DNA of 64,000 bases from Linyphia triangularis (lineage: Eukaryota > Arthropoda > Arachnida > Araneae > Linyphiidae), in the NCBI GenBank assembly GCA_963978545.1, contig OZ021732.1:23942688-24006687 (forward strand), written 5' to 3'. A program made the position numbers and the translations under genes. Position 1 is the stretch's first letter, and every line of letters starts with the position of its first letter. Positions 2,346 through 53,860 of the stretch are shown here, in pieces. The notes under the pieces are model-generated. The model did not search any database, was not told where the DNA came from, and worked only from the letters and a program-made list of their open reading frames with translations.

Positions 2346-3659
2346 TAAACACTGACATAGGCCAAGTTCTTTAGTCAGAATACTTTTTGTGATATCCCAT
2401 AATAAATATTGTTGAATTTGGAGAAACACTATTCCCTGTCAACGGCAAAGTTTAAAAAATAAAGTTTAAGGTTGATTCATTTATATTTTAGACAATTTTG
2501 TGAGGCTTGTGAAAAGTTCTTAAATTAACATTCATTATATCAAAACATTCTTATCTTAATTTTACAGTATTATAAATTGATATTTTTATAAAAATGAATA
2601 TTTGATGTAAATTTTACTGTGTAGATGGTTTTTTATTCTTAATAATTTTCTCAATCTTATTTCAGAAGAAGTAGGACTGTAGCTAATTATTAGTATTTTG
2701 ATATCGTTTGCAGTTGTGGGAATTCTGCGCCAGCGCGCAAAAAAATGGTATCCTGCGCCAACCTGCTACAAAACCACATTTAAGTGCAATTCTGCTCCAA
2801 TTTTCTCTAAATCTTCTTTTAAACGCGCAAGCTAAAGCACCAAACCAGCTCCCGCACATCAAATCTATGCGGAGACGAAATTACGGCAACCTCAAGGGCC
2901 GTTTTCGCACAAATTTGCAAAACATTCGATTTCCCCCCCCCCCCCCATTCCCCAACAGAATGCAATGTGTGGATTATCCCTCTGAAATCGACATTCACGC
3001 ATGCGCATTCATGTTCAAACACACTTTGCATCGGTGCAAATTAAAATTGCCGAGTACTGATTGCGAGATAGAATTTAGGGGGCAGCCTCAAAATTTCCAA
3101 TTTCTAGTTAGCACGGATGTCCATTTTCTTATGTACGTACCTTGATTAAGTGTGTTTCGCCGTATTCTTAGAACGCCCTCTTGTTCTAAATAAAGTAGAA
3201 AGGAACTGCTAAAAAGTTAAAGGTGTATAACCATCAAGTGTTTTTACTAAGCATTTAAATTGAATATTTCCGCTGAGACACGCGTAGTGACGATGCCTTC
3301 TTTTAAATTTAGGGATGTTTTTTATAATTTACTTGTTGCCTGTTGGTCGTTAACTTTTAAACGTCCGTTTTACATTGGAAATTAAGTATCACAAAAATGT
3401 AATCAAAATCCTGGAATGTTTCCGATTTAAAAAATAAAAGTAATACTTTTTTATAAGTTTATAGAACGGCATGTAGGGTGAAATCGCCGTTTAGACGCAG
3501 AATTTGACCCGATTTGGAAAATAAAAAAAATTCCCAAAATTTTAGAACATTCACAAAAATTTAGAAACAGTCTTATTTGAATTTTACTGTATTGCTATTT
3601 TTGCTATAAGATTGCTATTTTTACACAAATGAGTTTTATAATAATACAATTTTTTACAT

Positions 3660-10365: not shown

Positions 10366-10387
10366 ATCGTGAGTAGTATAAAAATGA

Positions 10388-10486
10388 GAGTTCTAACTCA
10401 CCGGAGCAGAGGGAGTTCTAACCCAGGGAGCAGAAAGTTCTAACTCGCGGATCAGGGAGTTCTAACTAAGGGAGCAGGGGTGACAG
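10388..10486. repeat. Subterminal short tandem repeats, left end
   Basis: The unit AGTTCTAACTCnnGGAGCAG(GG) occurs about four times just inside the left terminus, 16 bp from the end. Confidence 0.75.
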
Positions 10487-11334
10487 AGTGACATCATTGC
10501 GGGGAATGTTCGAACTGAGTGATCTTACCTATCTTACAAAGCTGGTGGCGACTATATGTTTACAAAATATATTTTATAATTAAATTAATATTTTTAGGGC
10601 GAGATTCGAACCCGTAACCTAGGGATTTCGGGGATTTACCTGAAGGGGTTGAGAGTGGAGATTAGAGTGTGTTGATAAGGATTGGGTGAAAAGAGGGATT
10701 GGGGAATGACTGGATGACTTTACACTAGTAATAATTTAAGACTAATAAAATCCTGTTGTATATTTTTGTTTATTGTGAGTTTATTTTACAGAAGAAGGGG
10801 GAAAAAATGTTTCATCCTTTTCTTCTATAAATGTTTTTTGTTCTTGTATATGGAGGTGGAAATCTTACTCTCACTCTTTTGTGTGATCTTCTAATTATTC
10901 TAGGAAATTGGTACATTTCATCGAAAAATGGTAGTTCATTGAATTTAAATAAAATTTAATATTTAGTTTTAGTTTAGAGAACTACGGTTTATGAGCATTT
11001 ATAATTTTACTGTACTAATATCATGTGAATAAATCTATTAAATGAAAAAGAAATCTGTATATGATTAAGTTTGATGAATACTAATATGAACAAGTTTAAA
11101 TTGAATGAAAGAGAATCTCTAGTCAAATAAGGAAACAGTTGTTTTCAATTAATCAATTTATTCAATACATATTAGAATATTTCATTTTACATACAAGTTT
11201 AACAAAATTTCATGATACATCATAGTTTATGTTCAACAATTTTAACAATTCAATTGCAGTTTTTCACAATATTTCAGTTGTAAATATATTACATACATTA
11301 AATCTATACAGCAAAAGAAAATGTAAATAATTAT

Positions 11335-11748
11335 TTAAACATCCATTAAAGATGGGATCTTAAAATCTCCATGTGCTAAGGTTGAAAAACCGTCATCTAA
11401 TATAAATCGTTTATCATCATATGGATTTAGAGATATTTTATTGATTTTTGTTTTATATAGTTGATGATTATCGTTAACAATACGAGTACTTTCTACTCTT
11501 GTTTGTATATTTTCTTTCAAACACTGCCTATAATCATTATGTGAGAGTTTTTTCTGCAGCGCAACCTTAGGAACGCCTTTTGCCGGTTTTTTTTAATGCA
11601 ATGCTCTGTTTCTATACTATACATCTTAACTTTTAAGCCAACAAATTCTCTTACAAGTGTTGCATTCATTTCGACCTTCATTTTCCCAACGACTTTTTTT
11701 ATTTTGATTAATAAAACCTATAATTTCTACGACAATGAATTCAAACAT
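11335..11748 (-). pseudogene. C-terminal fragment of Polinton protein-primed DNA polymerase B, left arm
   Basis: The minus strand encodes NKKVVGKMKDE-like and REFVGLKVKMYS-like segments, then after a frameshift SLNPYDDKRFILDDGFSTLA and a stop. Such segments characterise the extreme C-terminus of the B-family polymerase of arthropod Polintons. The fragment covers roughly 130 residues of a protein that is normally far larger. The frame breaks in an A run near 11590-11600, where this copy has eight A against six in the right arm. Neither copy is in frame. Transcription would run towards the element's left end, which fits the usual position of polB beside a terminus. Confidence 0.8.
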
Positions 11749-12560
11749 TGCCGTTCATGTCTTTAAAATGTATAATGACACCTCTAACTTTTAGAAAAAA
11801 AGAAACACTAAAAATTTACAAGGCAAAGAATTTAAAATTGAACGTTAAAATTAACTTTACATGTACTATCATACTCTTATATCAACGATAAATAAGATAA
11901 AAAAGAAACTCTAAAAATTTATAAGGCAAAGAATTTAAATAATACGCGAAAATTTACCTCTCATATAAAAATTATGTCTTTCAAATGTGTAAGAATAACG
12001 CTAAATTAGAGAAAAATAAATATTAAAAATTTATAAGGTAAGGAATTGAAACAATACGCGAAAATTTATTTCACACATAAAATTTTTATCTTTAAAATGT
12101 GTAAGAATAATGCAAAATTAGAGAAGAAAAAAAAAATAACATACTTAAACTTTCTTCGACAACAATTTAAACAATACGCGAAAATTTCATACACAATTAT
12201 TTGCTTAGGTTAATGTTAAATAATGGGAAATTTAACAGAATAAAAATTTCAAAGATAAAGAATTTTAACCTTTACACGAAAATTTACTTCAGATATAAAT
12301 ATCATGTCTTTAAACTTTAACGTGATAATTTACTTCTCATATACAATTAAACTCTTAGGTTAATGTTAAATAAAAGAAAAAGTAACATACTCAAAAATTT
12401 CTAAGATAAGCATAACGTAAAAATTTCATATATGTTTAAAATGTAACATATAAGAGAAAAAAAATAACATACTTGAACTTTCTATAGCAAAGAATTTAAG
12501 CGTTAGCGTAAAAATTTACTTTACATATAAAATTCACGTCTTTAAACGAGATGATAAGCA
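11735..12560. repeat. Degenerate tandem repeat, unit about 115-130 bp, left arm
   Basis: The phrases ATACGCGAAAATTTAC, CATATAAAATT, GTCTTTAAAATGTGTAAG and AAAAATTTATAAGGCAAAG recur in order about six times. The array lies directly inside the polB fragment. The matching array in the right arm (27365-28040) is shorter by about one unit. Confidence 0.7.
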
Positions 12561-13794
12561 TGTGACGGTAATTAGTCAATCAGGTTAGCGGTAGGTGATA
12601 CGCCACTTGCCGGCATTTTTAGACCGGAGGATGAGTCACGCTAAAACTTGTTCAAACAGGTAGGATGACTTGTACAGCAAGAACAGCAGCATCAACGCGC
12701 AAGCAGCGGTTGATCCTGCTGTGTGTCAGCAGGTCTTTGAGATTATCGTTTTCCTACTTTGCCTTTTTCGTAATGAAATGTTTATGAAAACTTGGAATGA
12801 ATGAAGTGGATTTCAAAGACACATTAGTAAGTGAAGGTAGAATTCGCATGGACTTTCTTCCAAAGAGTTTGATTCACTTGGAGAATTTAAGATCATTTCT
12901 ACTTGAAAACTTTTCTATTGTCTAAAACATTGAATATTGTTCAAACTCAGTGAGATTATATGCTACAATACGGGTAAAACTTAACAAAATTGTTACATAG
13001 AAGAAAAATAGTAAGAGATTTAAAATAAATACTAGTTATAGATACTCCAAAGAAAAAATTTCACCTCTACTTTTCAATCGAAAAATCAATGCAAGTTGGA
13101 AATTTATGTTACTTCAAGAAAGACTTAGACAATTTACTTTGTAATAATATTGTTGCACAAATTGTCTGTATATATTGTAAATAGTGACGTATTATTTCAA
13201 AATTCTATTGTAATTTATTTTTATCTTATTTTATTTATTAATTAATAGCGATTATACAAGTTAGAAAAAGGTGGCAGCACCTGAAGTAATCGAGAAGTTT
13301 CGAGAAATTTCTTTTCCGATGAATTGGCTGGAAATTTCGAGAATGTCTCACGCGCTTGGATATAAAAGACTGGAGAACGGGAAAGTTTTCAGATTGACTT
13401 TGGACTTCGAGGTGAGCTGATCGCTTTGTTTACTGGAGTGAGCTTGTATAATCGCCGTATTCGAAGTTATTTTTGTTGAAGCTTGAGAGTAATTAAACTG
13501 TTGCCTGTGAATAAATTTTGTGAGTTTTCTGAAGAGAGAATAAATATTTTCAGGGGCGTAGCCAGGATTTTTTTTCGGGAGGGGCTGAGAAATTATAAAT
13601 GTCAACTTCGGAAACAATAATTATCATTCAATAATTTACAAATCAAAATTAATCAAACTAAAAAACAAATAAACACTTTTTGGGATTATAATACTTTTAG
13701 CACATATAGCGTTCACTGGAAAGAAAATTTATTCGTTAAATGTAGTAATAATCAAATGACCCTTTCTTTTCACAATCGTGACATTAAGTATTAA

Positions 13795-13998
13795 CCCTTT
13801 GCACTCCAGTGGCGCCTCTCAGGCGCCACACGATTGGATGCCAAACCACTAGAGGACGATTAGGTGTGATGCGGAAATTCGATGCAAGGCCAATGACTGT
13901 GTTTAGTTTCTATGAAGCAAATCCATAAACACCAGCCGAACCTAAAATGTCTCGAGTTGCTGATTCCTCCGCGCGAAAAAGGCCTGGAGTGCAAAGGG
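13795..13998. mobile_element. piggyBac-like MITE flanked by TTAA, inside the hAT element
   Basis: CCCTTTGCACTCCAGTGGCG at the left and GCCTGGAGTGCAAAGGG at the right form inverted ends, with TTAA at 13791-13794 and 13999-14002. It is 204 bp and non-coding. TTAA targeting and CCCTTT ends are typical of the piggyBac group. The piggyBac relic at 56164 has a related end (CCCTTTCCGTATGG). Confidence 0.88.
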
Positions 13999-14137
13999 TT
14001 AATATGCATGAATAATACTTGATTAAGAATGCTTTAATGAAACACAATAAAAATGCTTTTTAAAATAAGGAAATGAGAAGAAATATCACATTTAAAATAA
14101 AGTTTAATAATGGGACAATTGTATGGATTAAGAGGCA

Positions 14138-15695
14138 TTACAAAGTTAAATTGAATTTTCTAACAGTTCCACTGCTGGCAAATTTGTTGAGGACCATCTC
14201 GTCTGAAACTGAGCATTGCCTATGGATATTCAGCAAAGCCAGTCCAGTTAAGCGATTTTCGCTTGTCGTACTTCTAAGATAAGTTTTCAATCTCCGAAGA
14301 GTAGAAAAACTTCTCTCAGCTGTGGCTGCTGACACTGGCAGAATGGATAGGATTTTGAGCAAAACGTATACGCTGGGGAAGATGTTTTGGTCGCATTCAT
14401 ATAGCGACCAAATCGCTGAGTTTGGTAACATTTCGACCGACATCCACTTTCTTTTCCACAGCTCCCATCCACCTTCAATCACATCTTTGTAAGTAGGAAG
14501 ATCATCTTCATAAAAGGAGATGCATGGTTCAATATCTTGAAAACTCTTCCCAACAGCGTGTTGCGGAATAAGGTTTTGCAAGGAAGAAATTGTTTCTTTA
14601 TGAGGCAAAAAGAGCTCATTTAATGAAGATATCATATCATCTAAGTAGGGCGTAAAAATTGTTATTCTATAGTATTCTTCAGTTGTTTTGTAGACTATAT
14701 TTGGGCGATTCTTTTGGATTTTACACACTCTTTGTGTTTTGACTTCTATATTATGTTTTACAGCTAAGGTTTCAGCTTCATTATATATAGAATTAAACTT
14801 ATCCACATGGTTGTTTCTCATTTATTGCAACATCGTCGTTATGTTGCTGACTTCACCCAAAGCACTGGCCAAGTCAATGTTAGTACTTTGCAGATACTCG
14901 GATAGGTTGTATGTGCAACCTAGCAGTTTACTGGCGATGCACAAACATACTAGAAAAGAAAACTGACATGCGCTTTGCAACAAAATGTTTGGCTTTTTGG
15001 ACGAATCGTCTGTTGCGAGGCCCTCGATTTCCTCTAACGAAGCGATGATTGGCTCTAAAAACTCCTTGAACATTAAAATGGCTTCATGACGTAAAATCCA
15101 ACGAATTTCACATAACGTCTTAAGTTTCGTCTGTTTTGTGTTGGGTTTCAAGTCTTTAATATTCTTTTTCAGAATATCTGTTCGTTTGTAGATTTATGAA
15201 AGAAACTGCAAATTTCTGAAATTACACCAAAGGCCTTTCGGATGCCCTGAACTTTCGTTGCGTCAGATATGCAGAGATTGAGAGAGTGAGTTACTCAATG
15301 GGTATATACAGCTTTCGGGTATTTTCTCTCACCATAGCTTGAACACCACGAAATTGCCTACGCATGTTTGACGCCCCGTCGTATCCTTGGCCACGTAGCT
15401 TGTTTAAATCAAAGCCAAGTTTTAGCAAGTCTTCTACAATTGTAGCTGTAAGACCTGCACCAGTTAAATTAGTGACAGGAATAAACGCAAGGAAATCTTC
15501 TCTAGTTTGTACAGTTGCTTCATCAATATACCTTATGCATAAAGACAGTTGTTCTATTTGAGAAATATCTGTTGTTTCGTAGGCAATGATGGAAAAAAAC
15601 TCTGAATTTGATACTTTTTTTAACTATTTCGGATTGTATGAGCTCTCCAAAAATACTTATGATTTCGTTTTGAATTGATGGGCTTATATACAATT
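14138..15695 (-). pseudogene. hAT transposase of the ZMYM1-like type, frameshifted
   Basis: The minus-strand order is: a region with LSLCIRYIDE and PVTNLTGAGL; the RGQGYDGASNM motif carrying a catalytic Asp (about 15360-15390); a long alpha-helical middle (14822-15151); and the C-terminal dimerisation block AATAERSFSTLRRLKTYLRS (14821-14138) ending in a stop. Stops and frameshifts separate the pieces near 15150-15330 and 15540-15620, and an in-frame stop lies at 14819-14821. Family members cut and paste DNA in the nucleus. This copy cannot encode a full enzyme, though the last 227 codons are open. Similar proteins are annotated as zinc finger MYM-type 1-like in many animals. Confidence 0.88.
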
Positions 15696-15904
15696 TCAAA
15701 AAATTAGAAAATAACGAAAACTTGTGTTATTTTCAAATTTTAATTATCCAAGCATAAATAGATCTATTTCTGACTTTCGAGGTTTGAAAATTTCGGGGGG
15801 GGGGGGGGCTGCAGCCCCATCAGCCACCCCCTGGCTACGCGCCTGAATATTTTTATACCGTGAAATTTGTACCATCATTGCCTCAGCGGAAAAATTCGTA
15901 ACAG

Positions 15905-15921
15905 TGGTGTCAGAAGTGGGG
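15905..15921 (+). promoter_or_regulatory. Primer binding site, tRNA-Leu-like
   Basis: TGGTGTCAGAAGTGGGG begins one base after the 5' LTR. It is close to the complement of a tRNA-Leu 3' end, as in several gypsy-group elements. The tRNA assignment is from memory of the motif. Confidence 0.75.
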
Positions 15922-15935
15922 TTTCGTAATTTTGA

Positions 15936-17180
15936 ATGCCGACAACTAGAGGAATGATGGAAGACCAAATGAAACAATTAATGGAAATGATTGCTGGAAT
16001 AAAAGCCGGACAAGAATCCACGGCCGCTGAAATGAAAGATGAAATAAAAGCCGGACAAGAATTAACCGCCGCTGGTCAAGCCCGTCAAGAAACGACAAAT
16101 GCCGAACTCGCCGCCGCAATCGCCGCTAGTCAAGAAGCAACATCGTCGGACATTAAAATTTTAGCCTCCAAACAGGAGTCGACTGCTGCGTCCGTTGACG
16201 GATTTATAGAGCGCACGGAAAATGTGCTTCAGTCAATGAAGGCTGATATTTCGGAAGTCAAAGAAGATCTTGTGACTGTGAGGAATGAAATCGAAGAAAA
16301 AGTTTCCACCTTAAAGGAAGAGCAAGCCAAATTCATTGACATTGCAGAAGAAAGGCTGCGAAAAATGGAAACTCGCGAAGCTGTCACCATTGCAACGCCT
16401 AATTGGGATAATGTTTCCACTCCTTTTATTGCGCCACGTTCCAACATCAAAGTGGCCACTTTTGATGGGAGGTCGTCTTGGCGCGTTTATCAAACGCAGT
16501 TTGAAATTATTGCTGCTGCGAATGGTTGGGACGATACTTCGAAGGCATTCCATCTCGCAGCATCTCTTCGAGGTGAAGCTGCTGACATTTTACAGACACT
16601 ACCTGAAGAGAAGCGGGGAGAATTCGTGGAGCTGGCAAGTGCGTTGGAATTAAGGTTTGGGGAGCAACATCTAAATGATTATAACAGACTGCAACTGAAA
16701 GTGAGACAGCAGAAGGCCAATGAAACTCTTCAAGAATTGGCATCGGATATAGAAAGACTGTCGCTCCTCGCTTTCCCAGACTGTCCCTCGGACGTACGAG
16801 ATAACCTGTCTCTTCAATATTTCGTGGATGCCATCAAAGATCCCGACATACAGCAAGCTACCAGGATGTCAGACAGCAAAGATCTGAAGTCCACCCTCGT
16901 CTATGCCATGAGAGTAGAAGCCGCACAGCAAGCTTCTAGAAAAGATCGGCGTTTCGTACGTGGAACATTGGCAGACGATTCCTCTGAACTTTTCACGAAG
17001 AAGTTTCAAGAACTGGAAAACAAGATGGAGCGAATTATGAGAAATATTCCTGGCTCGAGGGATCGAAAAACTAGAGTGGTTTGTTGGCTCTGCAACCGGG
17101 AAGGACATTTCAGACGTGATTGCCCTGAATTGGACAGGAGAGGGGACAGACCCTCGTCCGAGACTCAGCAGTTAAACTAA
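15936..17180 (+). CDS. gag: Gag polyprotein of the gypsy element
   Basis: Gag packages element RNA into cytoplasmic particles. The open frame is intact, 414 codons. Residues about 1-145 are Ala/Glu/Lys-rich with repeated AGQE(S/L)TAA segments and probable coiled coil. Residues about 175-330 form the capsid-like region (FDGRSSWRVYQTQF, then LRGEAADILQTLP). A CX2CX4HX4C zinc knuckle (CWLCNREGHFRRDC) lies at about residues 386-399. The start is the first ATG after the primer site, 33 bases downstream of the LTR. Pol lies in the -1 frame relative to gag after its stop, so Gag-Pol probably needs frameshifting or reinitiation. This is the only element gene in the window that appears undamaged. Confidence 0.93.
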   Translation: MPTTRGMMEDQMKQLMEMIAGIKAGQESTAAEMKDEIKAGQELTAAGQARQETTNAELAAAIAASQEATSSDIKILASKQESTAASVDGFIERTENVLQSMKADISEVKEDLVTVRNEIEEKVSTLKEEQAKFIDIAEERLRKMETREAVTIATPNWDNVSTPFIAPRSNIKVATFDGRSSWRVYQTQFEIIAAANGWDDTSKAFHLAASLRGEAADILQTLPEEKRGEFVELASALELRFGEQHLNDYNRLQLKVRQQKANETLQELASDIERLSLLAFPDCPSDVRDNLSLQYFVDAIKDPDIQQATRMSDSKDLKSTLVYAMRVEAAQQASRKDRRFVRGTLADDSSELFTKKFQELENKMERIMRNIPGSRDRKTRVVCWLCNREGHFRRDCPELDRRGDRPSSETQQLN

Positions 17181-17249
17181 AGAGCGGCTATCTCGCGAGG
17201 CGGAGTTCGCCGTGTAGAGCAGGTGGTGCCCCACTCAGCCTCTATCACA

Positions 17250-20200
17250 TCTCATCCCTTCAAGGAGGAAACCATGGTTTATTCGTCGAGGGCAAGATCA
17301 ATGGAACTCCCTGTCGTCTAATAGTTGACTCAGGGGCAAATGTAACCATCTTACGGACGGATGTAGCCCGGCGCCTGGGCAGCCAACCTCTTTACACGGC
17401 GCCTTCAGTTTCACTACAGACTGTGACTGGTGACAAAATTTCTGTGCATGGGAAATTAAATGTCAACATCTCTTTTGGATTTCACACCTACACTCATACC
17501 GTTTACGTCGCTGAAATTATTGACCCATGTATTCTTGGATTGGACTTTTAAAGAGAAATGGAATTACTTTGAATTTCGAGAAAGGCGAGCTTCACACGGG
17601 GAAAGAAGAAGTTCCATTGTTCGGTTTGGACTCGGAAGAGCCGTGTGCATATCGAATAGTAGCTCTTGAAGACATCACCATCCCCTCCATGACAGATTTG
17701 GTTGTAAAAGGTTCAACAGAGCTCCCGAAGGCCTTCCGATTTGGAGTAACGGACTTCCCATCATCGAATAGCGTCCCGAAAGGAGTGGTAGTAGGAGCGA
17801 CGTTTGTGGATCTCTCTCAAGAGGTGGTGCATGTGAGAATGGCCAACATCGGTGATTCTAAGAGAGTTATCAAGAAAGGAGAAGAAATTGCCACTTGCAC
17901 ACCTGTTACAAACATCGAACGAGGATCGAAGGAGCTTCCGACCGCACCACCCGCGGATTTAGTGGACCAGCTTCTCGAAGACTCTCGGTTGGAAAGAAGG
18001 CAAGAGAAGATTGTCGGAAGCCTTATAAAAGAATTTCAAGACATTTTCTCCATGTCATCGAAAGATGTAGGAAGAACAGAGCTTACTCAACATCGAATCG
18101 ATACTGGGACCCATTTACCTATTAAACAACATCCTCGAAGACTTCCTTTCGCAAAACAAGAGGAGGTCCTGAGATTGTTACATGAAATGGAAGATAATAG
18201 AGTTATCGAACCCTCCTCAAGTCCATGGGCCTCTCCAATCGTACTCGTTCGAAAGAAGGATGATTCCACCAGGTTTTGTGTGGATTACCGGAAGCTGAAC
18301 GAAATTACGAAAAAGGACAGCTACCCTCTGCCAAGAATCGATGACACTTTGGACACTCTATCGGGGAACCAGTGGTTTTCGACTTTGGATTTGAAGAGTG
18401 GATGCTGGCAAGTGGAGATACATCCCGACGATCGTGAGAAGACTGCCTTCACTACCGGCCAAGGATTATGGCAGTTTCAAGTTATGCCGTTTGGCTTGTG
18501 TAATGCACCGGCTACGTTCGAGCGACTAATGGGAGACTGTGCTTAGAGGACTTTCCTACGAGACCTGTCTGGTATATTTGGACGATATCATTATCACCGG
18601 GCGGAGTTTTGATCAACACTTGCAAAATGTGAAGAACGTGTTCTTGAAGCTTAGGGAAGCCCACTTGAAACTTAGCCCATCAAAATGTAAGCTCTTTAGG
18701 CGGAAAGTCAGTTATCTCGGACACATCATCTCATCCGATGGAGTAAGCACAGATCCAGCCAAGATCAATGCTGTGCAAATTTGGTCTCGACCGCAAGACG
18801 TTCATCAATGGCGAAGCTTCCTAAGCCTGTGCACGTATTACCGTAAATTCGTGAAAGGTTTCTCCAAGATCGCCAGACCCTTGCATCGACTAACAGAGAG
18901 CAAGCAGAAGTTCCTATGGACTGCCGACTGTGACGACTCCTTCAATCAACTGAAGAACGCTTTAACATCCGCGCTTGTTTTGGTTTTTCCCGATGTTAAC
19001 AAGGACTTTATTCTGGATACAGATGCCAGCAATGAGGGAGTGGGCACCGTTCTTTCCCAGGAAATTGAAGGACAGGAGAAAGTCGTCGCTTATTTTAGTA
19101 AGAGCCTGTCAAGATCCGAGCGGAACTACTGCGTCACAAGAAAGGAGTTACTGGCAATAGTAAAAGCCGTTGAGCACTTTTATCATTACTTGTACGGCCG
19201 AAAATTCCTTTTAAGAACTGATCATGCGACTCTGACTTGGTTGCTGAATTTCAAGAATACAGAGGGACAAATAGCAAGGTGGATTCAGCGCCTGCAGGAA
19301 TACGACATGGATATCCATCACAGAAAAGGAACGTTCCATGGGAATGCAGACGCTCTTTCTAGAAGACCATGTCCGGAGAACTGTCGATTTTGTTCCAATG
19401 CCGAGTCTAAGTTTGGGGTTAACACATCGGACGTTCGGAAAATAACTTCCAAGTCAACTACTTCAGACGTGGATCCTTGGAGTGATCAGAATGTCCGCAA
19501 AAGTCAGGTCGAAGATCAGGATTTGAAACTTCTCATTGAATTCCTGGAAGCGGCTACCGGAAAACCCAGTTGGACAGGAAATTGCATGCTATAGCCCAAC
19601 AATGAAGAGATATTGGGCTATGTGGGACTCTTTGCACTTGAAGAATGGAGTACTCTACCGTCGATGGGAGTCCGATGATGGCAAAAGCTTCCGGTGGCAA
19701 TTAATCCTTCCAAGTTCTAGAGTTACGAACGTTCTAGAAGAACTTCACAGCAGTTCTACTGGAGGACATTTTGGTGTCACGAAAACTCTTCAGAAAGTCT
19801 GGGAGAGATTCTTCTGGGACAAAGCAAAATCCGACGTGGAGAAGTGGTGCAAGTCCTGTGATGCATGCAATTCGCGGAAGGGACCGAAGACCCGAACTCG
19901 TGGAAAGTTGCAACGTTACAACGTAGGAGCACCATTCGAAAGAATTGCTTTGGACGTCTTAGGCCCCCTACCTCACACAACTAATGGCAACAAATACATC
20001 CTAGTTGTCATGGACTACTTTAGCAAGTGGCCAGAAGCATACGCGATTCCGGTCCAGGAAGCCACAACCGTAGCAGAAGTCCTCGTACGGAATTGGATCT
20101 CCCGATTTGGCGTACCCCTGCTGATACATTCCGATCAGGGGACGAACTTCAACTCTGCCGTCTTCACTGGGCTGTGTGACTTGCTCGACATGGAAAAGAC

Positions 20201-20783
20201 TCGTACAACTCCCCTGCACCCACAATCCGATGGAATGGTTGAACGATTTAATAGAACGATTCTGAATCATCTCTCCTTGTTTGTTTCCAAGAACCAGCAA
20301 GATTGGGATCAGAAACTTCCATTGTTCCTTTTGGCCTACAGAAGTGCTACTCACGAGACCACCGGATACACACCATCTCAAATGATTTTCGGAAGAGACC
20401 TTAGACTACCCTGCGACCTCCTCTTTGGACGACCACCGGACACCCCTTCCTCGCCTGTCCAGAATCTAGATGATCTCCAGGCACGTTTGGAAGCCGTACA
20501 TCGGTTCGCCAGAGAAAGAATCCACATCATGACAGAGCGCATGAAGATCCGCTACGATGCCAAGGCCACGGAACGTTCATTCCAGGAAGGTGACAAGGTG
20601 TGGTTATGGAATCCTAAACGTCGGAAAGGACTCTCCCCTAAGCTCCAGACGAACTGGGAAGGGCCGTATGTGGTCCTTAAGAAGATCAACGACGTCGTGG
20701 TAAGGATTCAACGGACACCCTCCTGTAAACCTAGAGTTGTACATAACAATAGACTAGCCCCATATTATAGTAGAAGTGATTGA
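17250..20783 (+). pseudogene. pol: Pol polyprotein (protease, RT, RNase H, integrase) with three 1-bp frameshifts
   Basis: Protease: LIVDSGANVTIL, with the active-site DSG at about 17324-17335. Reverse transcriptase: the [10 protein letters not shown] motif near 18277 and YLDD at 18575-18586. RNase H: begins near 19015 (DTDASNEG). Integrase: zinc-binding H and C residues, with CKSCDAC near 19850. Catalytic D, D, E fall at 19953, 20133 and 20241 with 35 residues between the last two, followed by a GPY motif (WEGPYVVL). The frame is lost at about 17548 (one T missing), about 18532 (one extra G) and about 19574 (one extra A). The related copy at 59040-64000 has the in-frame base count at each site. 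No premature stops by substitution were seen. Confidence 0.9.
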
Positions 20784-20830
20784 ATTGACTTTTCTCTTAA
20801 GGACTTCACTGCCCGGGACGTACAGTCTTT

Positions 20831-20843
20831 AAGAAGGGGGAAA
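20831..20843 (+). promoter_or_regulatory. Polypurine tract
   Basis: AAGAAGGGGGAAA lies directly before the 3' LTR and is the expected plus-strand primer for reverse transcription. Confidence 0.85.
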
Positions 20844-21305
20844 TGTTGCACAAATTGTCTGTATATATTGTAAATAGTGACGTATTATTTCAAAATTCTA
20901 TTGTAATTTATTTTAATCTTATTTTATTTATTAATTAATAGCGATTATACAAGTTAGAAAAAGGTGGCAACACCTGAAGTAATCGAGAAGTTTCGAGAAA
21001 TTTCTTTTCCGATGAATTGGCTGGAAATTTCGAGAATGTCTCACGCGCTTGGATATAAAAGACTGGAGAACGGGAAAGTTTTCAGATTGACTTTGGACTT
21101 CGAGGTGAGCTGATCGCTTTGTTTACTGGAGTGAGCTTGTATAATCGCCGTATTCGAAGTTATTTTTGTTGAAGCTTGTGTTGAAGCTTGAGAGTAATTA
21201 AACTGTTGCCTGTGAATAAATTTTGTGAGTTTTCTGAAGAGAGAATAAATATTTTTATACCGTGAAAACTGTACCATCATTGCCTCAGCGGAAAAATTCG
21301 TAACA
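20844..21305 (+). repeat. 3' LTR (462 bp)
   Basis: TGTTGCAC...GTAACA. It contains the uninterrupted hAT target (AATATTTT once, about 21247-21254), which confirms the hAT insertion in the other LTR. Confidence 0.93.
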
Positions 21306-21309
21306 ATAT

Positions 21310-23785
21310 ACGTTAAGGTGTCGTATTAACTCGTGCAATACATGCTGACTAAGGTTTATTTTACTTATCTAAGAAAGGTGAATTGGGGGAAAATATTAAA
21401 TAAATTGTAGATATTAAATACATTGTAGATATGCATTCAAGTTTTGAAAATCACCTGCAAGACTTTTAAAACATCTTAAGATAAATTGAAAGAAACTTGT
21501 GAATTATATGTAAACTATATAACTTTTTATACTCTGAAAGGAAATCACAAGTAATTTAGTTAACTTTTTTCATGGTAACACTCATATTCAACGACATGTT
21601 TTTAAAATTTAACCTTCTTTACATGATAATAGTTATAAATTTTTTCAATCTCAGATGCGATATACTATTATTTCTAACATATATGTTACGAATTGTGTAA
21701 AGTTTTTAAAAGAGTATATGCAAATCACCAATCAGAAACATAAAAATCTAACATCAATCAAACAAACTAAAATAATAAGATATTTTCCTTTGTGGAAATA
21801 GTTAACTACTCATGTGATGGAATATACTTAGAAAATTTAAATACTGAAAAAAGTTTGCTAGCCAAACTTAAAGAATATATATTTTTTTTCTTGTGAAAAA
21901 CTAGCATACATTTGAAAAATGTAGAGTTTGTTACTCGTAAAATTGAACATCATCTGGACAAACTAAATTATACATGATTTTTTTTTTTTATATTTGAGAG
22001 GTGCTGACAATATATCATTAATATAGAGATTTTTAACTTCCACCCATAATTTCTAAATAACTTATACATAATTTTCAGAAAACTGAAACGGAATGTGTTT
22101 TACAAGACGCTTATTTTGTAAGATGAATATTCAATATTAATATAACTGAGCAAAGTCCATTCCGGAAAAAAAACTTGTAAAAGATACTTATATTTTGAAA
22201 ATAGTTTGAAATATCCTTTTAAATTTATGAATGCTCGCTTTCGAAAGACACAAATAAAACTGATATTACTCATGATAATTAACACATACATAACATTAGT
22301 CAAACAAAGTGAAATTTTTATTGCTTGTGACCGATAACTTTTCAGTGAAGTAGAACTTACATAGGAAATTTGTGCAAACTTTTTCAACTTTTAAACCAAG
22401 TATCATGTAAAATTATAAATTTCGATAGGAAATAGCACACTTCAGAATCGGAACAAGTCTTCTAATTAAGCTAAATTTATTTCTCAAGGAATTGAAAGCA
22501 TACCAGAAAAGTCCTTATCATTTCGCATCTTTTCTCATGTTGCAAGAAAACATACTTTGTAAAAGATCGTCGTTGCACTTAACAAAAATCAGTAAAAATA
22601 AATGTATTTTCTATGGCAAAGATAAAACTTCACAACTTAATTACTGAAATTTAGCTAAGTTGCATATGGTTTATTCACATAACTCGCATATGCTTCGAAT
22701 GTTGAAATATATTTGTCAGTTGAAATCAAACTCATCGAAAATAAATGCTACCTACATTTTCAAGTCGGAAATTACTATTAAATAAACTTTACATGTAAAA
22801 CATTGTCATGTTAAAAAGAAAAATCTACAAAAATGTAAACGATAATTTTACTGTTGGTACATAAATGATGAATAATTTATGATTTTATTCTAGGCAAACG
22901 TTTTATTGTCTAACAGAGAACTTAAACTTTAGCAGAAAAACGAAAAAATACAATTTTTATATCCTATCATGCTTGTCGAAAATTGAATTTATTAGCTGTT
23001 GTAATAGATTTTTATTGTCCAAATTTCTATAGTTTTTCTTCCCAGTGTAATAAAATTAAGTTCATGTGTAATGATTAGGTTTTTTTTTTTTTTTTATGAA
23101 TCTTATAAATTTAATGAAATTATTATGACCTAAGAGATTGAGTGAACTGAATAAATCAATGATGTAAATTTAAACAGTGACTTGAACTGATACATACTAT
23201 AACTGTAAAGAAGTATGACAAAGTGATAGATGAAGTAAAAATAGAAGTTGAGTGAAATGTGTTTGAAAAAAAGTTGAAGACGACAAGAAATTCGTAATTG
23301 AGAATTATCATTGACTTATATTAACTTCGTTTTTCTTGCTTATGACAAGAAAATACACACTTTCTTATTAAGAACCAACTTGATATCTTATCATAGAATA
23401 ACAATGATAAAATATCTATACATTAAAAAAAAAAAAAAAAAAAAAAAAAATACCAAACTTAGACATAGCAAATTTCTTGAAATTCATGTATAATGTGAGA
23501 AGTTTTACTGGAAATATAGAAGATACAGCATTGAAAGATGTGAATGTTTCGATGTACTTTATCAGAAATAAAAAAATAAAAAAATGCCCTGAGGTTCGCT
23601 ATAAAAAATTTTAGGAAAAAGTTTAAACAAAATTTAAAATCAAACATGCTTTTAAATGGGAACACATATATTAAAACTATAGCACATTAAACAATTTATA
23701 TTACGTCATCTCAGTTGTATCAAACTGAATAACATGAAAAACAACCACAAACTGAATAAACATGAAAATTATCAATATATATGGA
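21310..23785 (+). repeat. Left palindrome arm, inner part
   Basis: It continues the left arm after the gypsy element and is the reverse complement of 24316 to about 26780. It is AT-rich, without recognisable genes. A 95-codon open frame (22100-22387, minus strand) has a counterpart in the other arm (25694-25981) only because the arms are near-identical. Confidence 0.9.
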
Positions 23786-24315
23786 TAATATTTAGAAAGA
23801 GGTCGGATATCTTCAACTATTCTACACCTGATTGGACAACACTTATAATGTGTGTGAGGAAAAAAAAAAAAAAAAAATTCAATTACTAGGTGAGAAAAAT
23901 TTCCTTGTAGGAATCAATGAAATTGGATAGTTATACTTTGGTTCGAAGCAATTTTCGTTTCAAGCATATGATTTGTTGCTAAGTTGAAATAAATACACTT
24001 TAAATCAATGCTTAGTATCTTTTCTTTTATTCTTACTATGATCATTCTTATATTGAAGGATGATTTTTCGAAAGTCAATATATTTGAAAAATAAATATAT
24101 CTATAGTGTAAAGTTAAAGTTACGTGGAATACTATTGGAATTAGCATTAGAAATTCAATCACTCAATTTATTCATGGGATATTGACCATCACGTGAATAT
24201 CTCACGGCAACATTGGTTGCTCTTATCGGTATATGATTACGCATGTTTTCGTGATCTTAACGTACGTCAATATGTTATTATTTTTTTTTTTTTATATGTG
24301 AAAAAAGCAAACTTT
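23786..24315. other. Central loop of the palindrome (about 530 bp)
   Basis: This is the only part of the element without a mirror copy. It holds an A tract (about 23861-23878) and a T tract (about 24281-24293). No coding sequence was recognised; an 82-codon open frame on the minus strand has no recognisable motif. Confidence 0.8.
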
Positions 24316-27202
24316 TCCATATATATTGATAATTTTCATGTTTATTCAGTTTGTGGTTGTTTTTCATGTTATTCAGTTTGATACAACTGAGAGGACGTAA
24401 TATTAATTGTTTAATGTGCTATAGTTTTAATATATGTGTTCCCATTTAAAAGCATGTTTGATTTTAAATTTTGTTTAAACTTTCTCCTAAAATTTTTTAT
24501 AGCGAACCTCAGCGCATTTTTTTATTTTTTTTATTTCTGATAAAGTACTTCGAAACATTCACATCTTTCAATGTTGTATCTTCTATATTTCCAGTAAAAC
24601 TTCTCACATTATACATGAATTTCAAGAAATTTGCTATGTCTAAGTTTGGTATTTTTTTTTTTTTTAATGTATAGATATTTCATCATTGTTATTCTATGAT
24701 AAGATATCAAGTTGGTTCTTAATAAGAAAGAGTGTATTTTCTTGTCATAAGCAAGAAAAACGAAGTTAATATAAGTCAATGATAATTCTCAATTACGAAT
24801 TTCTTGTCGTCTTCAACTTTTTTTCAAACACATTTCACTCAACTTCTATTTTTACTTCATCTATCACTTTGTCATACTTCTTTACAGTTATAGTATGTAT
24901 CAGTTCAAGTCACTGTTTAAATTTACATCATTGATTTATTCAGTTCACTCAATCTCTTAGGTCATAATATAATTTCATTAAATTTATAAGATTCATAAAA
25001 AAAAAAATCTAATCATTACACATGAACTTAATTTTATTACACTGGGAAGAAAAACTATAGAAATTTGGACAATAAAAATCTATTACAACAGCTAATAAAT
25101 TCAATTTTCGACAAGCATGATAGGATATAAAAATTGTATTTTTTCGTTTTTCTGCTAAAGTTTAAGTTCTCTGTTAGACAATAAAACGTTTGCCTAGAAT
25201 AAAATTTATTCATCATTTATGTACCAACAGTAAAATTATCGTTTACATTTTAGTAGATTTTTCTTTTTAACATGACAATGTTTTACATGTAAAGTTTATT
25301 TAATAGTAATTTCCGACTTGAAAATGTAGGTAGCATTTATTTTCGATGAGTTTGATTTCAACTGACAAATATATTTCAACATTCGAAGCATATGCGAGTT
25401 ATGTGAATAAACCATGTGCAACTTAGCTAAATTTCAGTAATTAAGTTGTGAAGTTTTATCTTTGCCATAGAAAATACATTTATTTTTACTGATTTTTGTT
25501 AAGTGCAACGACGATCTTTTACAAAGTATGTTTTCTTGCAACATGAGAAAAGATGCGAAATGATAAGGACTTTTCTGGTATGCTTTCAATTCCTTGAGAA
25601 ATAAATTTAGCTTAATTAGAAGACTTGTTCCGATTCTGAAGTGTGCTATTTCCTATCGAAATTTATAATTTTACATGATACTTGGTTTAAAAGTTGAAAA
25701 AGTTTGCACAAATTTCCTATGTAAGTTCTACTTCACTGAAAAGTTATCGGTCACAAGCAATAAAAATTCCAATGTGTTTGACTAATGTTATGTATGTGTT
25801 AATTATCATGAGTAATATCAGTTTTATTTGTGTCTTTCGAAAGCGAGCATTCATAAATTTAAAAGGATATTTCAAACTATTTTCAAAATATAAGTATCTT
25901 TTACAAGTTTTTTTTCCGGAATGGACTTTGCTCAGTTATATTAATATTGAATATTCATCTTACAAAATAAGCGTCTTGTAAAACACATTCCGTTTCAGTT
26001 TTCTGAAAATTATGTATAAGTTATTTAGAAATTATGGGTGGAAGTTAAAAATCTCTATATTAATGATATATTGTCTGCACCTCTCAAATAAAAAAAGAAA
26101 ATGCATGTATAATTTAGTTTGTCCAGATGATGTTCAATTTTACGAGTAACAAACTCTACATTTTTCAAATGTATGCTAGTTTTTCACAAGAAAAAAAAAT
26201 ATATATTCTTTAAGTTTGGCTAGCAAACTTTTTTCAGTATTTAAATTTTCTAAGTATATTCCATCACATGAGTAGTTAACTATTTCCACTAAGGAAAATA
26301 TCTTATTATTTTAGTTTGTTTGATTGATGTTAGATTTTTATGTTTCTGATTGGTGATTTGCATATACTCTTTTAAAAACTTTACACAATTCGTAACATAT
26401 ATGTTAGAAATAATAGTATATCGCATCTGAGATTGAAAAAATTTATAACTATTATCATGCAAAGAAGGTTAAATTTTAAAAACATGTCGTTGAATATGAG
26501 TGTTACCATGAAAAAAGTTAACTAAATTACTTGTGATTTCCTTTCAGAGTATAAAAAGTTATATAGTTTACATATAATTCGCAAGTTTCTTTCAATTTAT
26601 CTTGAGATGTTTTAAAAGTCTTGCAGGTGATTTTCAAAACTTGAATGCATATCTACAATGTATTTAATATCTACAATTTATTTAATATTTTCCCCCAATT
26701 CACCTTTCTTAGATAAGTAAAATAAACCTTAGTCAGCATGTATTGCACGAGTTAATACGACACCTTAACGTATATTATTACAAAGTAAATTGTCTAAGTC
26801 TTTCTTGAAGTAACATAAATTTCCAACTTGCATTGATTTTTCGATTGAAAAGTAGAGGTGAAATTTTTTCTTTGGAGTATCTATAACTAGTATTTATTTT
26901 AAATCTCTTACTATTTTTCTTCTATGTAACAATTTTGTTAAGTTTTACCCGTATTGTAGCATATAATCTCACTGAGTTTGAACAATATTCAATGTTTTAG
27001 ACAATAGAAAAGTTTTCAAGTAGAAATGATCTTAAATTCTCCAAGTGAATCAAACTCTTTGGAAGAAAGTCCATGCGAATTCTATCTTCACTTACTAATG
27101 TGTCTTTGAAATCCACTTCATTCATTCCAAGTTTTCATAAACATTTCATTACGAAAAAGGCAAAGTAGGAAAACGATAATCTCAAAGACCTGCTGACACA
27201 CC

Positions 27203-27236
27203 GCAGCATCAACCGCTGCTTGCGCGTTGATGCTGC
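27203..27236. repeat. Perfect 11-bp hairpin in the right arm
   Basis: GCAGCATCAAC and GTTGATGCTGC flank a 12-base loop inside an unusually GC-rich 150-bp segment of the arm. The left-arm version (about 12686-12722) has one stem mismatch. Confidence 0.6.
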
Positions 27237-27364
27237 TGTTCTTGCTGTACAAGTCACCCTACCTGTTTGAACAAGTTTTAGCGTGACTCATCCTCCGGTC
27301 TAAAAATGTCTTCAAGTGGCGTATCACCTACCGCTAACCTGATTGACTAATTACCGTCACATGC

Positions 27365-28040
27365 TTATCATCTCGTTTAAAGACGTGAATTTTATATGTA
27401 AAGTAAATTTTTACGCTAACGCTTAAATTCTTTGCTATAAAAAGTTCAAGTATGTTATTTTTTTTCTCTTATATGTTACATTTTAAACATATGATATGAA
27501 ATTTTTACGTTATGCTTATCTTAGAAATTTTTGAGTATGTTACTTTTTCTTTTATTTAACATTAACCTAAGAGTTTAATTGTATATGAGAAGTAAATTGT
27601 CACGTTAAAGTTTATAGACATGATATTTATATCTGAAGTAAATTTTCGTGTAAAGGTTAAAATTCTTTATCTTTGAAATTTTTATTCTGTTAAATTTCCC
27701 ATTATTTAACATTAACCTAAGAAAATAATTGTGTATGAAATTTTCGCGTATTGTTTAAATTGTTGTCGAAGAAAGTTTAAGTATGTTATTTTTTTTTCTT
27801 CTCTAATTTTGCATTATTCTTACACATTTTAAAGATAAAAATGTTATGTGTGAAATAAATTTTCGCGTATTGTTTCAATTAGTTTCTTTTTTATCTTATT
27901 TATTGTTGATATAAGAGTATGATAGTACATGTAAAGTTAATTTTAACGTTCAATTTTAAATTCTTTGCCTTGTAAATTTTTAGTGTTTCTTTTTTCCTAA
28001 AAGTTAGAGGTGTCATTATACATTTTAAAGACATGAACGG
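27365..28040. repeat. Degenerate tandem repeat, unit about 115-130 bp, right arm
   Basis: Mirror of 11735-12560. Near 27880 the right arm passes straight from one unit to a later one and lacks about 130 bp present in the left arm. This is a length change expected from slippage or unequal exchange. Confidence 0.7.
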
Positions 28041-28042
28041 CA

Positions 28043-28454
28043 ATGTTTGAATTCATTGTCGTAGAAATTATAGGTTTTATTAATCAAAATAAAAAAGTCG
28101 TTGGGAAAATGAAGGACGAAATGAATGCAACACTTGTAAGAGAATTTGTTGGCTTAAAAGTTAAGATGTATAGTATAGAAACAGAGCATTGCATTAAAAA
28201 ACCCGGCAAAAGGCGTTCCTAAGGTTGCGCTGCAGAAAAAACTCTCACATAATGATTATAGGCAGTGTTTGAAAGAAAATATACAAACAAGAGTAGAAAG
28301 TACTCGTATTGTTAACGATAATCATCAACTATATATAACAAAAATCAATAAACTAGCTCTAAATCCATATGATGATAAGCGATTTATATTAGATGACGGT
28401 TTTTCAACCTTAGCACATGGAGATTTTAAGATCCCATCTTTAATGGATGTTTAA
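28043..28454 (+). pseudogene. C-terminal fragment of Polinton protein-primed DNA polymerase B, right arm
   Basis: Mirror copy of the left-arm fragment. The first part is open from about 28043 and contains REFVGLKVKMYS. The frame is lost in the A run at about 28191-28197. The second part (open from at least 28200) contains the KGVPK and ALNPYDDKRFILDDG segments and stops at 28454. It points to the right terminus. The residues upstream of about 28040 do not look like polymerase, so only the 3' end of polB was kept. Confidence 0.8.
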
Positions 28455-29169
28455 ATAATTATTTACATTTTCTTTTGCTGTATAGATTTAATGTATGTAA
28501 TATATTTACAACTGAAATATTGTGAAAAACTGCAATTGAATTGTTAAAATTGTTGAACATAAACTATGATGTATCATGAAATTTTGTTAAACTTGTATGT
28601 AAAATGAAATATTCTAATATGTATTGAATAAATTGATTCATTGAAAACAACTGCTTCCTTATTTGACTAGAGACTCTCTTTCATTCAATTTAAACTTGTT
28701 CATATTAGTATTCATCAAACTTAATCATATACAGATTTCTTTTTCATTTAATAGATTTATTCACATGATATTAGTACAGTAAAATTATAAATGCTCATAA
28801 ACCGTAGTTCACTAAACTAAAACTAAATATTAAATGTGAAATTTTATTTAAATTCAATGAACTACCATTTTTCGATGAAATGTACCAATTTCCTAGAATA
28901 ATTAGAAGATCACACAAAAGAGTGAGAGTAAGATTTCCACCTCCATATACAAGAACAAAAAACATTTATAGAAGAAAAGGATGAAACATTTTTTCCCCCT
29001 TCTTCTGTAAAATAAACTCACAATAAACAAAAATATACAACAGGATTTTATTAGTCTTAAATTATTACTAGTGTAAAGTAATCCAGTCATTCCCCAATCC
29101 CTCTTATCACCCAATCCTTATCAACACACTCTAATCTCCACTCTCAACCCCTTCAGGTAAATCCCCGAA

Positions 29170-29245
29170 ATCCCTGGGTGGTTAAAGCAGAAAACAATAA
29201 TTACTCTTTCATTGTATCCTTTTACGGGTTCGAATCTCGCCCTAA
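29170..29245 (+). other. tRNA-like A-box/B-box pair in the right arm
   Basis: GGGTGGTTAAAGCAG resembles a pol III A box, and ACGGGTTCGAATCTCGCCCT, 45 bp on, resembles a B box plus T arm. The cloverleaf is poor: the anticodon arm has a 12-base loop and I cannot pair the acceptor ends. This is a tRNA-derived relic at best. The left arm keeps the B-box part (10599-10620) but has lost about 46 bp including the A box. Confidence 0.35.
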
Positions 29246-29299
29246 AAATATTAATTTAATTATAAAATATATTTTGTAAACATATAGTTTTATTATTCA

Positions 29300-29313
29300 A
29301 CACTAGATGGCGC
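29300..29313 (+). promoter_or_regulatory. CTCF-like motif in the right arm
   Basis: ACACTAGATGGCGC matches the insect/vertebrate CTCF core (CCASYAGRKGGC) at all but the first base. The left arm has a deletion of about 22 bp that removes most of the motif. The motif match is visible; binding is not shown. Confidence 0.35.
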
Positions 29314-29379
29314 CACCAGCTTTGTAAGATAGGTAAGATCACTCAGTGCGAACATTCCCCGCAATGATGTCACTCTGTC

Positions 29380-29577
29380 ACCCCTGCTCCCTTAGTTAGA
29401 ACTCTCTGCTCCCCGAGTTAGAACTCCCTGTTCAGCCTGATCCGTGAGTTAGAACTTTCTGCTCCCCTTGCTCCCCAAGTTAGAACTTTCTGCTCCCCCC
29501 TGCTCCCCAAGTTAGAACTTTCTGCTCCCTGGGTTAGTACTCCCTCTGCTCCACCTGCTCCGGTGAGTTAGAACTCT
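29380..29577. repeat. Subterminal short tandem repeats, right end
   Basis: Inverted counterpart of the left array, with about seven units of AGTTAGAACTTTCTGCTCCCC and extra CTGCTCCCC sub-units. The copy number differs between the two ends of one element. Confidence 0.75.
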
Positions 29578-29598
29578 CATTTTTATACTACTATCGTG

Positions 29599-53345: not shown

Positions 53346-53735
53346 TCAAAGAATACATTTGAATAATTTGATTGTTGCTAACAATCGAGTGATTCGATTG
53401 TTTCCATCTCAATCCTTGAAGCTCCTATAATATTTAAGGACCTGAGAAGCAAAGGGGTCCAAGTGACTTTTTCTTTAACTTTTGAGAAAATACACTTTAA
53501 AGTTTCTAATTTATATTACTCTTGCGTGAAAATTATCTGTTCAAAGAATACATTTGAATAATTTGATTGTTGCTAACAATCGAGTGATTCGATTGTTTCC
53601 ATCTCAATCCTTGAAGCTCCTATAATATTTAAGGACCTGAGAAGCAAAGGGGTCTAAGTGACTTTTTCTTTAACTTTTGAGAAAATACACTTTAAAGTTT
53701 CTAATTTATATTACTCTTGCGTGAAAATTATCTGT
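53346..53735 (+). repeat. Two 195-bp tandem copies, one visible mismatch
   Basis: The unit starting TCAAAGAATACATTTGAATA runs 53346-53540 and again 53541-53735. The only difference I see is GGGGTCCAAG against GGGGTCTAAG. It ends about 460 bp before the DCAF13 start codon. Confidence 0.92.
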
Positions 53736-53860
53736 TGTTCAAATACTATCGTCTGCAATAAAGATATCACTAGTTTTCATAGAATTTAATATAAATAAAC
53801 TTTTATGTATATTTTATCAAAAGTTGAGAAATGTCACCTGGACCCTTTGCTTCTCAGTCC
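53438..53860. mobile_element. MITE with about 55-bp inverted ends, partly duplicated
   Basis: GGACCTGAGAAGCAAAGGGG at the left and CCCTTTGCTTCTCAGTCC at the right are inverted. The similarity continues about 40 bp inwards (GTGACATTTCTC / AACTTTTGATAAAATATAC). The left part lies in the 195-bp tandem duplication, so there are two left ends (53438 and 53633). No target duplication identified. Confidence 0.65.

Follow-up and report, generated by a model that had tools for sequence, protein, structure and literature searches.

The window, a stretch of 64,000 nucleotides from the genome of the spider Linyphia triangularis (contig OZ021732.1, positions 23,942,688 to 24,006,687), contains a long palindromic element between positions 10366 and 29598, whose two arms are reverse complements of each other and whose left arm is split by a gypsy retrotransposon. 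The in-register, ungapped pieces of the arms are mostly 97-100% complementary, falling to 93-95% toward the ends. The inner part of the arms differs by 25 single-nucleotide polymorphisms (SNPs) in 2468 columns (1.01%; 21297-23788 against 26784-24313), and the outer part, rich in tandem repeats, aligns more poorly and is 3-6% divergent. Judged from this alignment, mirror sequence so long and so identical is not a product of chance. The termini are mirror images of each other (AGTAGTATAAAAATGAG), with AGTAGT at both ends and the perfect 6-bp duplication ATCGTG on both sides, and 524 bp of unpaired sequence lie between the arms. Both the near-complete palindrome and the hard boundaries claimed by the first-pass annotation are thereby verified. 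The features of the element are as follows (LTR, long terminal repeat; ORF, open reading frame):

10366-10371, no strand: left 6-bp target site duplication, ATCGTG, from the sequence
10372-13150, minus strand: left arm, outer piece, reverse complement of the right arm, from the arm alignment
10372-11715, minus strand: mirror copy of the end module, its inner limit set from the arm alignment
13151-21300, plus strand: gypsy LTR retrotransposon in the left arm, with LTRs and gag and pol ORFs, right edge approximate
14138-14821, minus strand: C-terminal fragment of a hAT transposase inside the gypsy insert (PF05699, 2.3e-10)
21297-23788, minus strand: left arm, inner piece, from the arm alignment
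23789-24312, plus strand: unpaired remainder ('loop'), probably the leftover of a deletion, from the family comparison
24313-29592, plus strand: right arm, from the arm alignment
24313-28075, plus strand: core A, longest stop-free frame 96 amino acids, about 95-97% shared with longer palindromes
28076-29592, plus strand: end module (polB 3' end and terminal repeat), matching the Polinton C10:9038634-9054401
28179-28454, plus strand: polB C-terminal ORF piece of 91 amino acids, from the homologue alignment
29178-29592, plus strand: terminal repeat region, with a sequence match at the left end of the C10 Polinton
29593-29598, no strand: right 6-bp target site duplication, ATCGTG, from the sequence

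Searching the host genome (1.35 Gb in 369 contigs) with the right arm yielded 2380 first-look candidates, 35 of which were scored; these are candidates and not copy numbers. Among the scored ones were the window and 25 other loci, nine of them minus/plus pairs, and all nine pairs were fetched along with two single-arm loci. Arm against arm, these pairs are 99.6-100% identical over 5.2-7.5 kb, a length that in some cases is cut short by the limits of the pieces fetched, and the longest element, C9:41327932-41343517, measures 15.6 kb. A further search with the terminus of this element (2796 candidates, 40 scored) recovered 24 loci (23 new), among them 16 end pairs, whose ends are 13.5-17.2 kb apart in 14 cases and about 25 kb apart in two. 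The window element is hence not unique: counting it, core A or the terminus of the family is present at 49 loci or more, a minority of which were read. The loop sequence of the window is present within both arms in eight of the nine fetched pairs and is therefore not an original spacer. This corrects the earlier description of a 530-bp loop: a deletion appears to have taken the center of the window copy and ~0.5 kb from the inner side of its left arm, and this copy is an old, center-deleted member of the family.

Both AGTAGTTAGA termini are present in eight of the nine pairs, L015 being without its left end, and seven of the eight two-ended copies are flanked by perfect 6-bp duplications (AATGCG, CTTGTG, AGCAAT, AACCCA, TAGGGG, CATATA, ACTCTG). 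These bear directly on the concern that the mirror symmetry was produced by fold-back reads or mirrored contigs, long inverted duplications being a generally known class of assembly artefact. The copies stand in different flanks with their own duplications, and the window has an insert in one arm only; accordingly, an artefact has next to no likelihood.

In terms of gene content, the four family arms examined hold no stop-free frame longer than 115 amino acids, and the arm ORFs gave only sub-threshold matches in Pfam. Rather than polB, integrase and capsid genes of its own, as an autonomous element would carry, the window element has only a recognizable C-terminal piece of polB. The 7.5-kb arms contain, close to their ends (L010:6355-7300), ~155-bp tandem repeats with many TGACGTCA-like motifs, which we take to be of the CRE/ATF type, and ORFs that look gypsy-like by eye occur near the center of another copy (L027:1-3000). 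A candidate autonomous Polinton, C12:16465526-16482590, was ruled out, as L034 and L040 show it to be a sibling with core A and the polB tail. It holds an inserted element and has lost part of its left arm, and ORFs that are mariner-like by eye flank its right end module on both sides.

The relationship to Polintons emerges from the ends. With the outer 1.5 kb of the window element as query, 33 candidates were obtained and all scored, giving 72 matching stretches, and C10:9038634-9054401 was identified as a conventional Polinton of 15.8 kb that bears the window's terminal sequence. It is flanked by CATGAT on both sides and its mirrored repeats span just ~0.4-0.5 kb. Its polB is interrupted, with pieces in different frames; of the 7996 proteins scored against it, 5239 are homologues at E <= 0.001, the best at 56% identity. 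A capsid-like ORF has 2635 homologues, of which many among the 120 listed are F54H12.2-like and one is named Capsid protein, the named homologues among the matches listed being mostly from spiders. Additionally, a piece of an adenovirus-type protease scores above the Pfam cut-off (PF00770). The outer ~1.5 kb of each window arm corresponds to the polB 3' end and terminal repeat of this Polinton, with window position 28076 mapping to a point within its polB. This match to the terminus of a Polinton with genes from the host genome concerns the window copy, not the AGTAGTTAGAAA-ended copies. When the 91-residue tail (ORF 28179-28451) was set against the 120 polB homologues listed, it lined up with the C-terminus in 76, and for the remaining 44 there was no match at E <= 1e-3. 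This upholds the earlier claim that the arms contain the 3' end of polB. As a query on its own, the tail found no homologue in a large protein set and none in viral contigs, and its identity was settled via the upstream gene in L039. The L039 ORF has no PF03175 match in Pfam and just two chance-level matches in the PDB, but it matches a PHROGs DNA polymerase (1.8e-7), and some of its listed protein homologues carry PF03175.

The core tells a different story from the ends. The ~3.75-kb core was compared with 6.9 kb of the 15.8-kb C10 Polinton and found no match there, so that alignment with a full Polinton of the species, as the first-pass annotation had proposed, placed only the outer part of the arm. 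Further, sequences L036-L038 (C14, C15 and C3) carry a different core joined to the same polB tail at the same base (window 28076), and in the window the core/polB junction is mirrored in both arms. The same tail at the same base on a different core implies that end modules move between families. This second core, core B, was fetched at four midpoints of its end pairs, of which C4:69720405-69731438 is palindromic (99.1%, with ~280 bp between the arms), and the core sequence is common to C4, C6 and C14 (L041, L043, L044) at 97-98%. A part of core B (L043) is about 75% similar to L010:5078-5726, and on this sequence similarity the two cores may be distantly related. The AGTAGTTAGA-ended copies themselves fall into two groups (L009, L011, L013, L021, L025 as opposed to L017, L019, L023) with non-homologous outer modules of ~2.5 kb, always of the same kind on both arms, and columns compared across the two groups are 25-41% divergent.

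A study on vertebrate Mavericks (PMC8097293) recognizes these elements by (AGT)2//(ACT)2 ends, or by (AG)3, together with perfect 6-bp duplications. AGTAGT ends and perfect 6-bp duplications are common to the window element, the C10 Polinton and seven of the eight two-ended family copies. The family is thus very probably a Polinton-derived palindrome. The proposal of a fold-back, non-autonomous Polinton stands as regards the termini, the duplications, the polB 3' end, the many copies and the ends shared with the C10 Polinton, but the core lies outside the Polinton match. The notion of a Polinton simply reduced to its terminal repeats is not borne out as it stands, the core having no match in the Polinton sequence compared and the polB tail being an end module that also occurs on a different core.

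The centers of other copies show how the two arms are joined. In the four fetched centers (L029-L032) the arms meet with almost no spacer, L032 having an extra AT-rich tract, and the meeting point is an imperfect AT-rich palindrome of ~80 bp. This dyad is recognizable in ten elements (six of the nine sites tried, plus L031, L032, L048 and L049), and two of the 15 new pairs from the terminus search, read at their midpoints, both have the same palindromic center. Irregular centers were seen in L025/L026, C9:42427766 (L006), C14:5659775 (L005), L027 (which has an insert) and the window. The asymmetries within the dyad recur between copies, and at the C5:2485x center one half matches the other where the other copies differ. 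A possible flip/flop of the center was dropped, the opposite orientations merely reflecting the orientation of insertion. The same dyad sequence in ten elements, C5:2485x with one half altered, indicates that the dyad is inherited. This makes it very unlikely that the palindrome is made anew at each insertion by snap-back at the broken end of a single Polinton, even though such an event would account for both the identical arms and the one junction found in both of them.

The history of the arms can be read from the manner in which copies differ. In a tree from a 1.47-kb alignment of the core, each of the ten copies has its two arms as sister branches; nine copies show 0-2 SNPs between their arms per ~1400-1469 columns and the window 12 in 1470, and the between-copy divergence in the same alignment is 0.34-2.86%. 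Over comparable stretches, arms within a copy differ by 0-0.33% and copies by 0.58-2.24%. Symmetry was counted in eight copies, leaving out L015/L016 and the window. The inner part common to all eight has 2553 gap-free columns; 71 of them are variable, 62 being symmetric in all copies and nine asymmetric, each in exactly one copy and none in two (within copies 0-6 differences per 2571-3223 columns, between copies 0.58-1.00%). Across 5.4 kb in the group of five copies sharing an end module, 125 of 141 variable columns are symmetric and 16 asymmetric (within 0-18 per ~5400 columns, between 0.81-2.09%); the arms of L025/L026 carry 18 differences in 5399 columns. In the group of three, 131 of 134 are symmetric and three asymmetric, none of them shared (within 0-2, between 1.23-2.24%). 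A count pooling the outer 5.4 kb of all eight copies (672 variable, 656 symmetric, between-copy median 12%) was rejected as inflated by the non-homologous end modules. Those differences between arms that persist are, with few exceptions, confined to one copy. In a palindrome whose arms are not equalized a mutation hits one arm only; hence, the symmetric majority means that the arms have been equalized since the lineages of the copies parted. This argument relies on the symmetry of the differences and not on the size of the divergence. The first-pass annotation suggested a birth by end-to-end fusion or snap-back synthesis; the pattern seen is one of concerted evolution of the arms, compatible with a folded-back intermediate.

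These counts render highly improbable a palindrome that arose once and recently spread from one master copy by ordinary transposition, with no equalization of its arms. It would fit the near-identical arms of all nine fetched pairs; however, copies differ more than the arms within a copy do, and at 62 of 71 variable sites of the inner part the two arms agree in every copy. The main rival is arm-to-arm gene conversion in the chromosome after insertion, with transposition merely copying the whole palindrome. The arms of primate Y palindromes are kept identical in this way, and such conversion explains the identical arms, the symmetric between-copy differences and an unconverted spacer, as well as the C5:2485x center. 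Drift after insertion is suggested instead by the 18 arm differences of L025/L026 and by the comparison with the ~8.1-kb gypsy insert: the window arms have diverged by 1.01%, and the LTRs of this later insertion (13151-13550 and 20844-21255) by 0.50%; this is the order expected of arms that are identical at first and undergo no conversion later. The LTR value stands on two SNPs in 400 sites, and its uncertainty overlaps the arm value. On balance chromosomal conversion is considered unlikely, though by less than the other alternatives, and it is probable that the arms were equalized through a folded-back replication step.

A likely overall picture is that of gene-poor palindromic Polinton satellites, equalized in a folded-back intermediate and integrated by helper enzymes. 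The protein-primed polymerase of a helper Polinton would copy the element from its two identical ends. The displaced strand, being self-complementary, would form a duplex with itself, turning at the central hairpin, and within this duplex repair or templated copying could erase the differences between the arms. From that hairpin the whole palindrome would be regenerated, and the integrase of the helper would insert it; its arms would thus be identical at insertion and diverge from each other only later, in the chromosome. Recombination would exchange end modules between families, and these could get into both arms along the same folded-back route. Such a model accounts for the identical arms, the private asymmetries, the conserved dyad and the one junction in both arms. 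A more specific and tentative version, to which we give somewhat less than even chances, has the central hairpin as a turn-around point at which each cycle rewrites one arm from the other, the satellite spreading, perhaps packaged, with helper Polintons; the satellite would then parallel snap-back defective-interfering genomes while being integrated and stable over evolutionary time.

Several observations weigh against folded-back equalization or the Polinton origin. Of the 16 asymmetric columns in the group of five, one is asymmetric in more than one copy, and one SNP position (reference 6664, in a tandem array) is common to two copies among the nine pairs, with unlike bases. The dyad folds as DNA at -20.9 kcal/mol (z -7.5), but near-palindromes all fold well, so that this energy gives no independent support, and the center may simply be an unconverted spacer. 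One copy, L013/L014 (C8:69027358-69041960), has both ends with unlike flanking hexamers (TGTATG, AGCGGC), possibly through ectopic recombination between copies. Core A finds no counterpart in the part of the C10 Polinton compared, and of the four core-B midpoints those of C6, C14 and C15 are not palindromic within the 1 kb read. Mobilization by a Polinton integrase and protein-primed polymerase is suggested by the ends only, and the C10 copy, with its interrupted polB, is no more than a candidate helper. The anatomy and the difference pattern are direct observations; the intermediate and the helper would be deduced from them, no extrachromosomal form having been observed.

Elsewhere in the window, a second gypsy integrase fragment on the minus strand (59699-60262) is by eye closely like that of the left-arm insert, and a 195-bp unit is duplicated in tandem at 53346-53736 with a 99% match.

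Among known systems, the family resembles Polintons/Mavericks in its (AGT)2 ends, 6-bp duplications, and the terminal repeat and polB 3' end held in common with a Polinton of the same genome. It differs in having no gene set, in arms that make up nearly the whole element as against the ~0.4-0.5-kb repeats of the Polinton, and in being palindromic with a hairpin-like center. The Foldback and Galileo elements make duplications of 9 and 7 bp with other enzymes, and have termini of their own, unlike the AGTAGT ends and 6-bp duplications seen here. The likeness to these Drosophila elements, of which Galileo belongs to the P superfamily, lies in the very long, internally repetitive inverted repeats (PMC3573991). 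Palindromic defective adenovirus genomes such as Ad12 SYREC are a protein-primed relative, in which a viral end and the non-viral DNA next to it make up the palindrome. They arise in culture; the present family, by contrast, is integrated, dispersed and inherited. The hairpin telomeres of poxviruses and parvoviruses have an imperfect hairpin flanked by mirrored sequence, as in the family center, but in the family nothing points to free hairpin ends or to a resolving enzyme. A literature search at the level of titles and abstract openings, covering few subscription papers, found no palindromic Polinton derivative; by that comparison, what is new here is a set of Polinton-derived, non-autonomous, palindromic elements.

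Polinton replication has been inferred mainly from genes. If the arms are equal at birth, the sequences of the family would preserve the trace of an intermediate that is protein-primed and folded back, and each insertion would carry an internal clock, with its arms behaving like LTRs. The family would also constitute a non-autonomous satellite class of Polintons.

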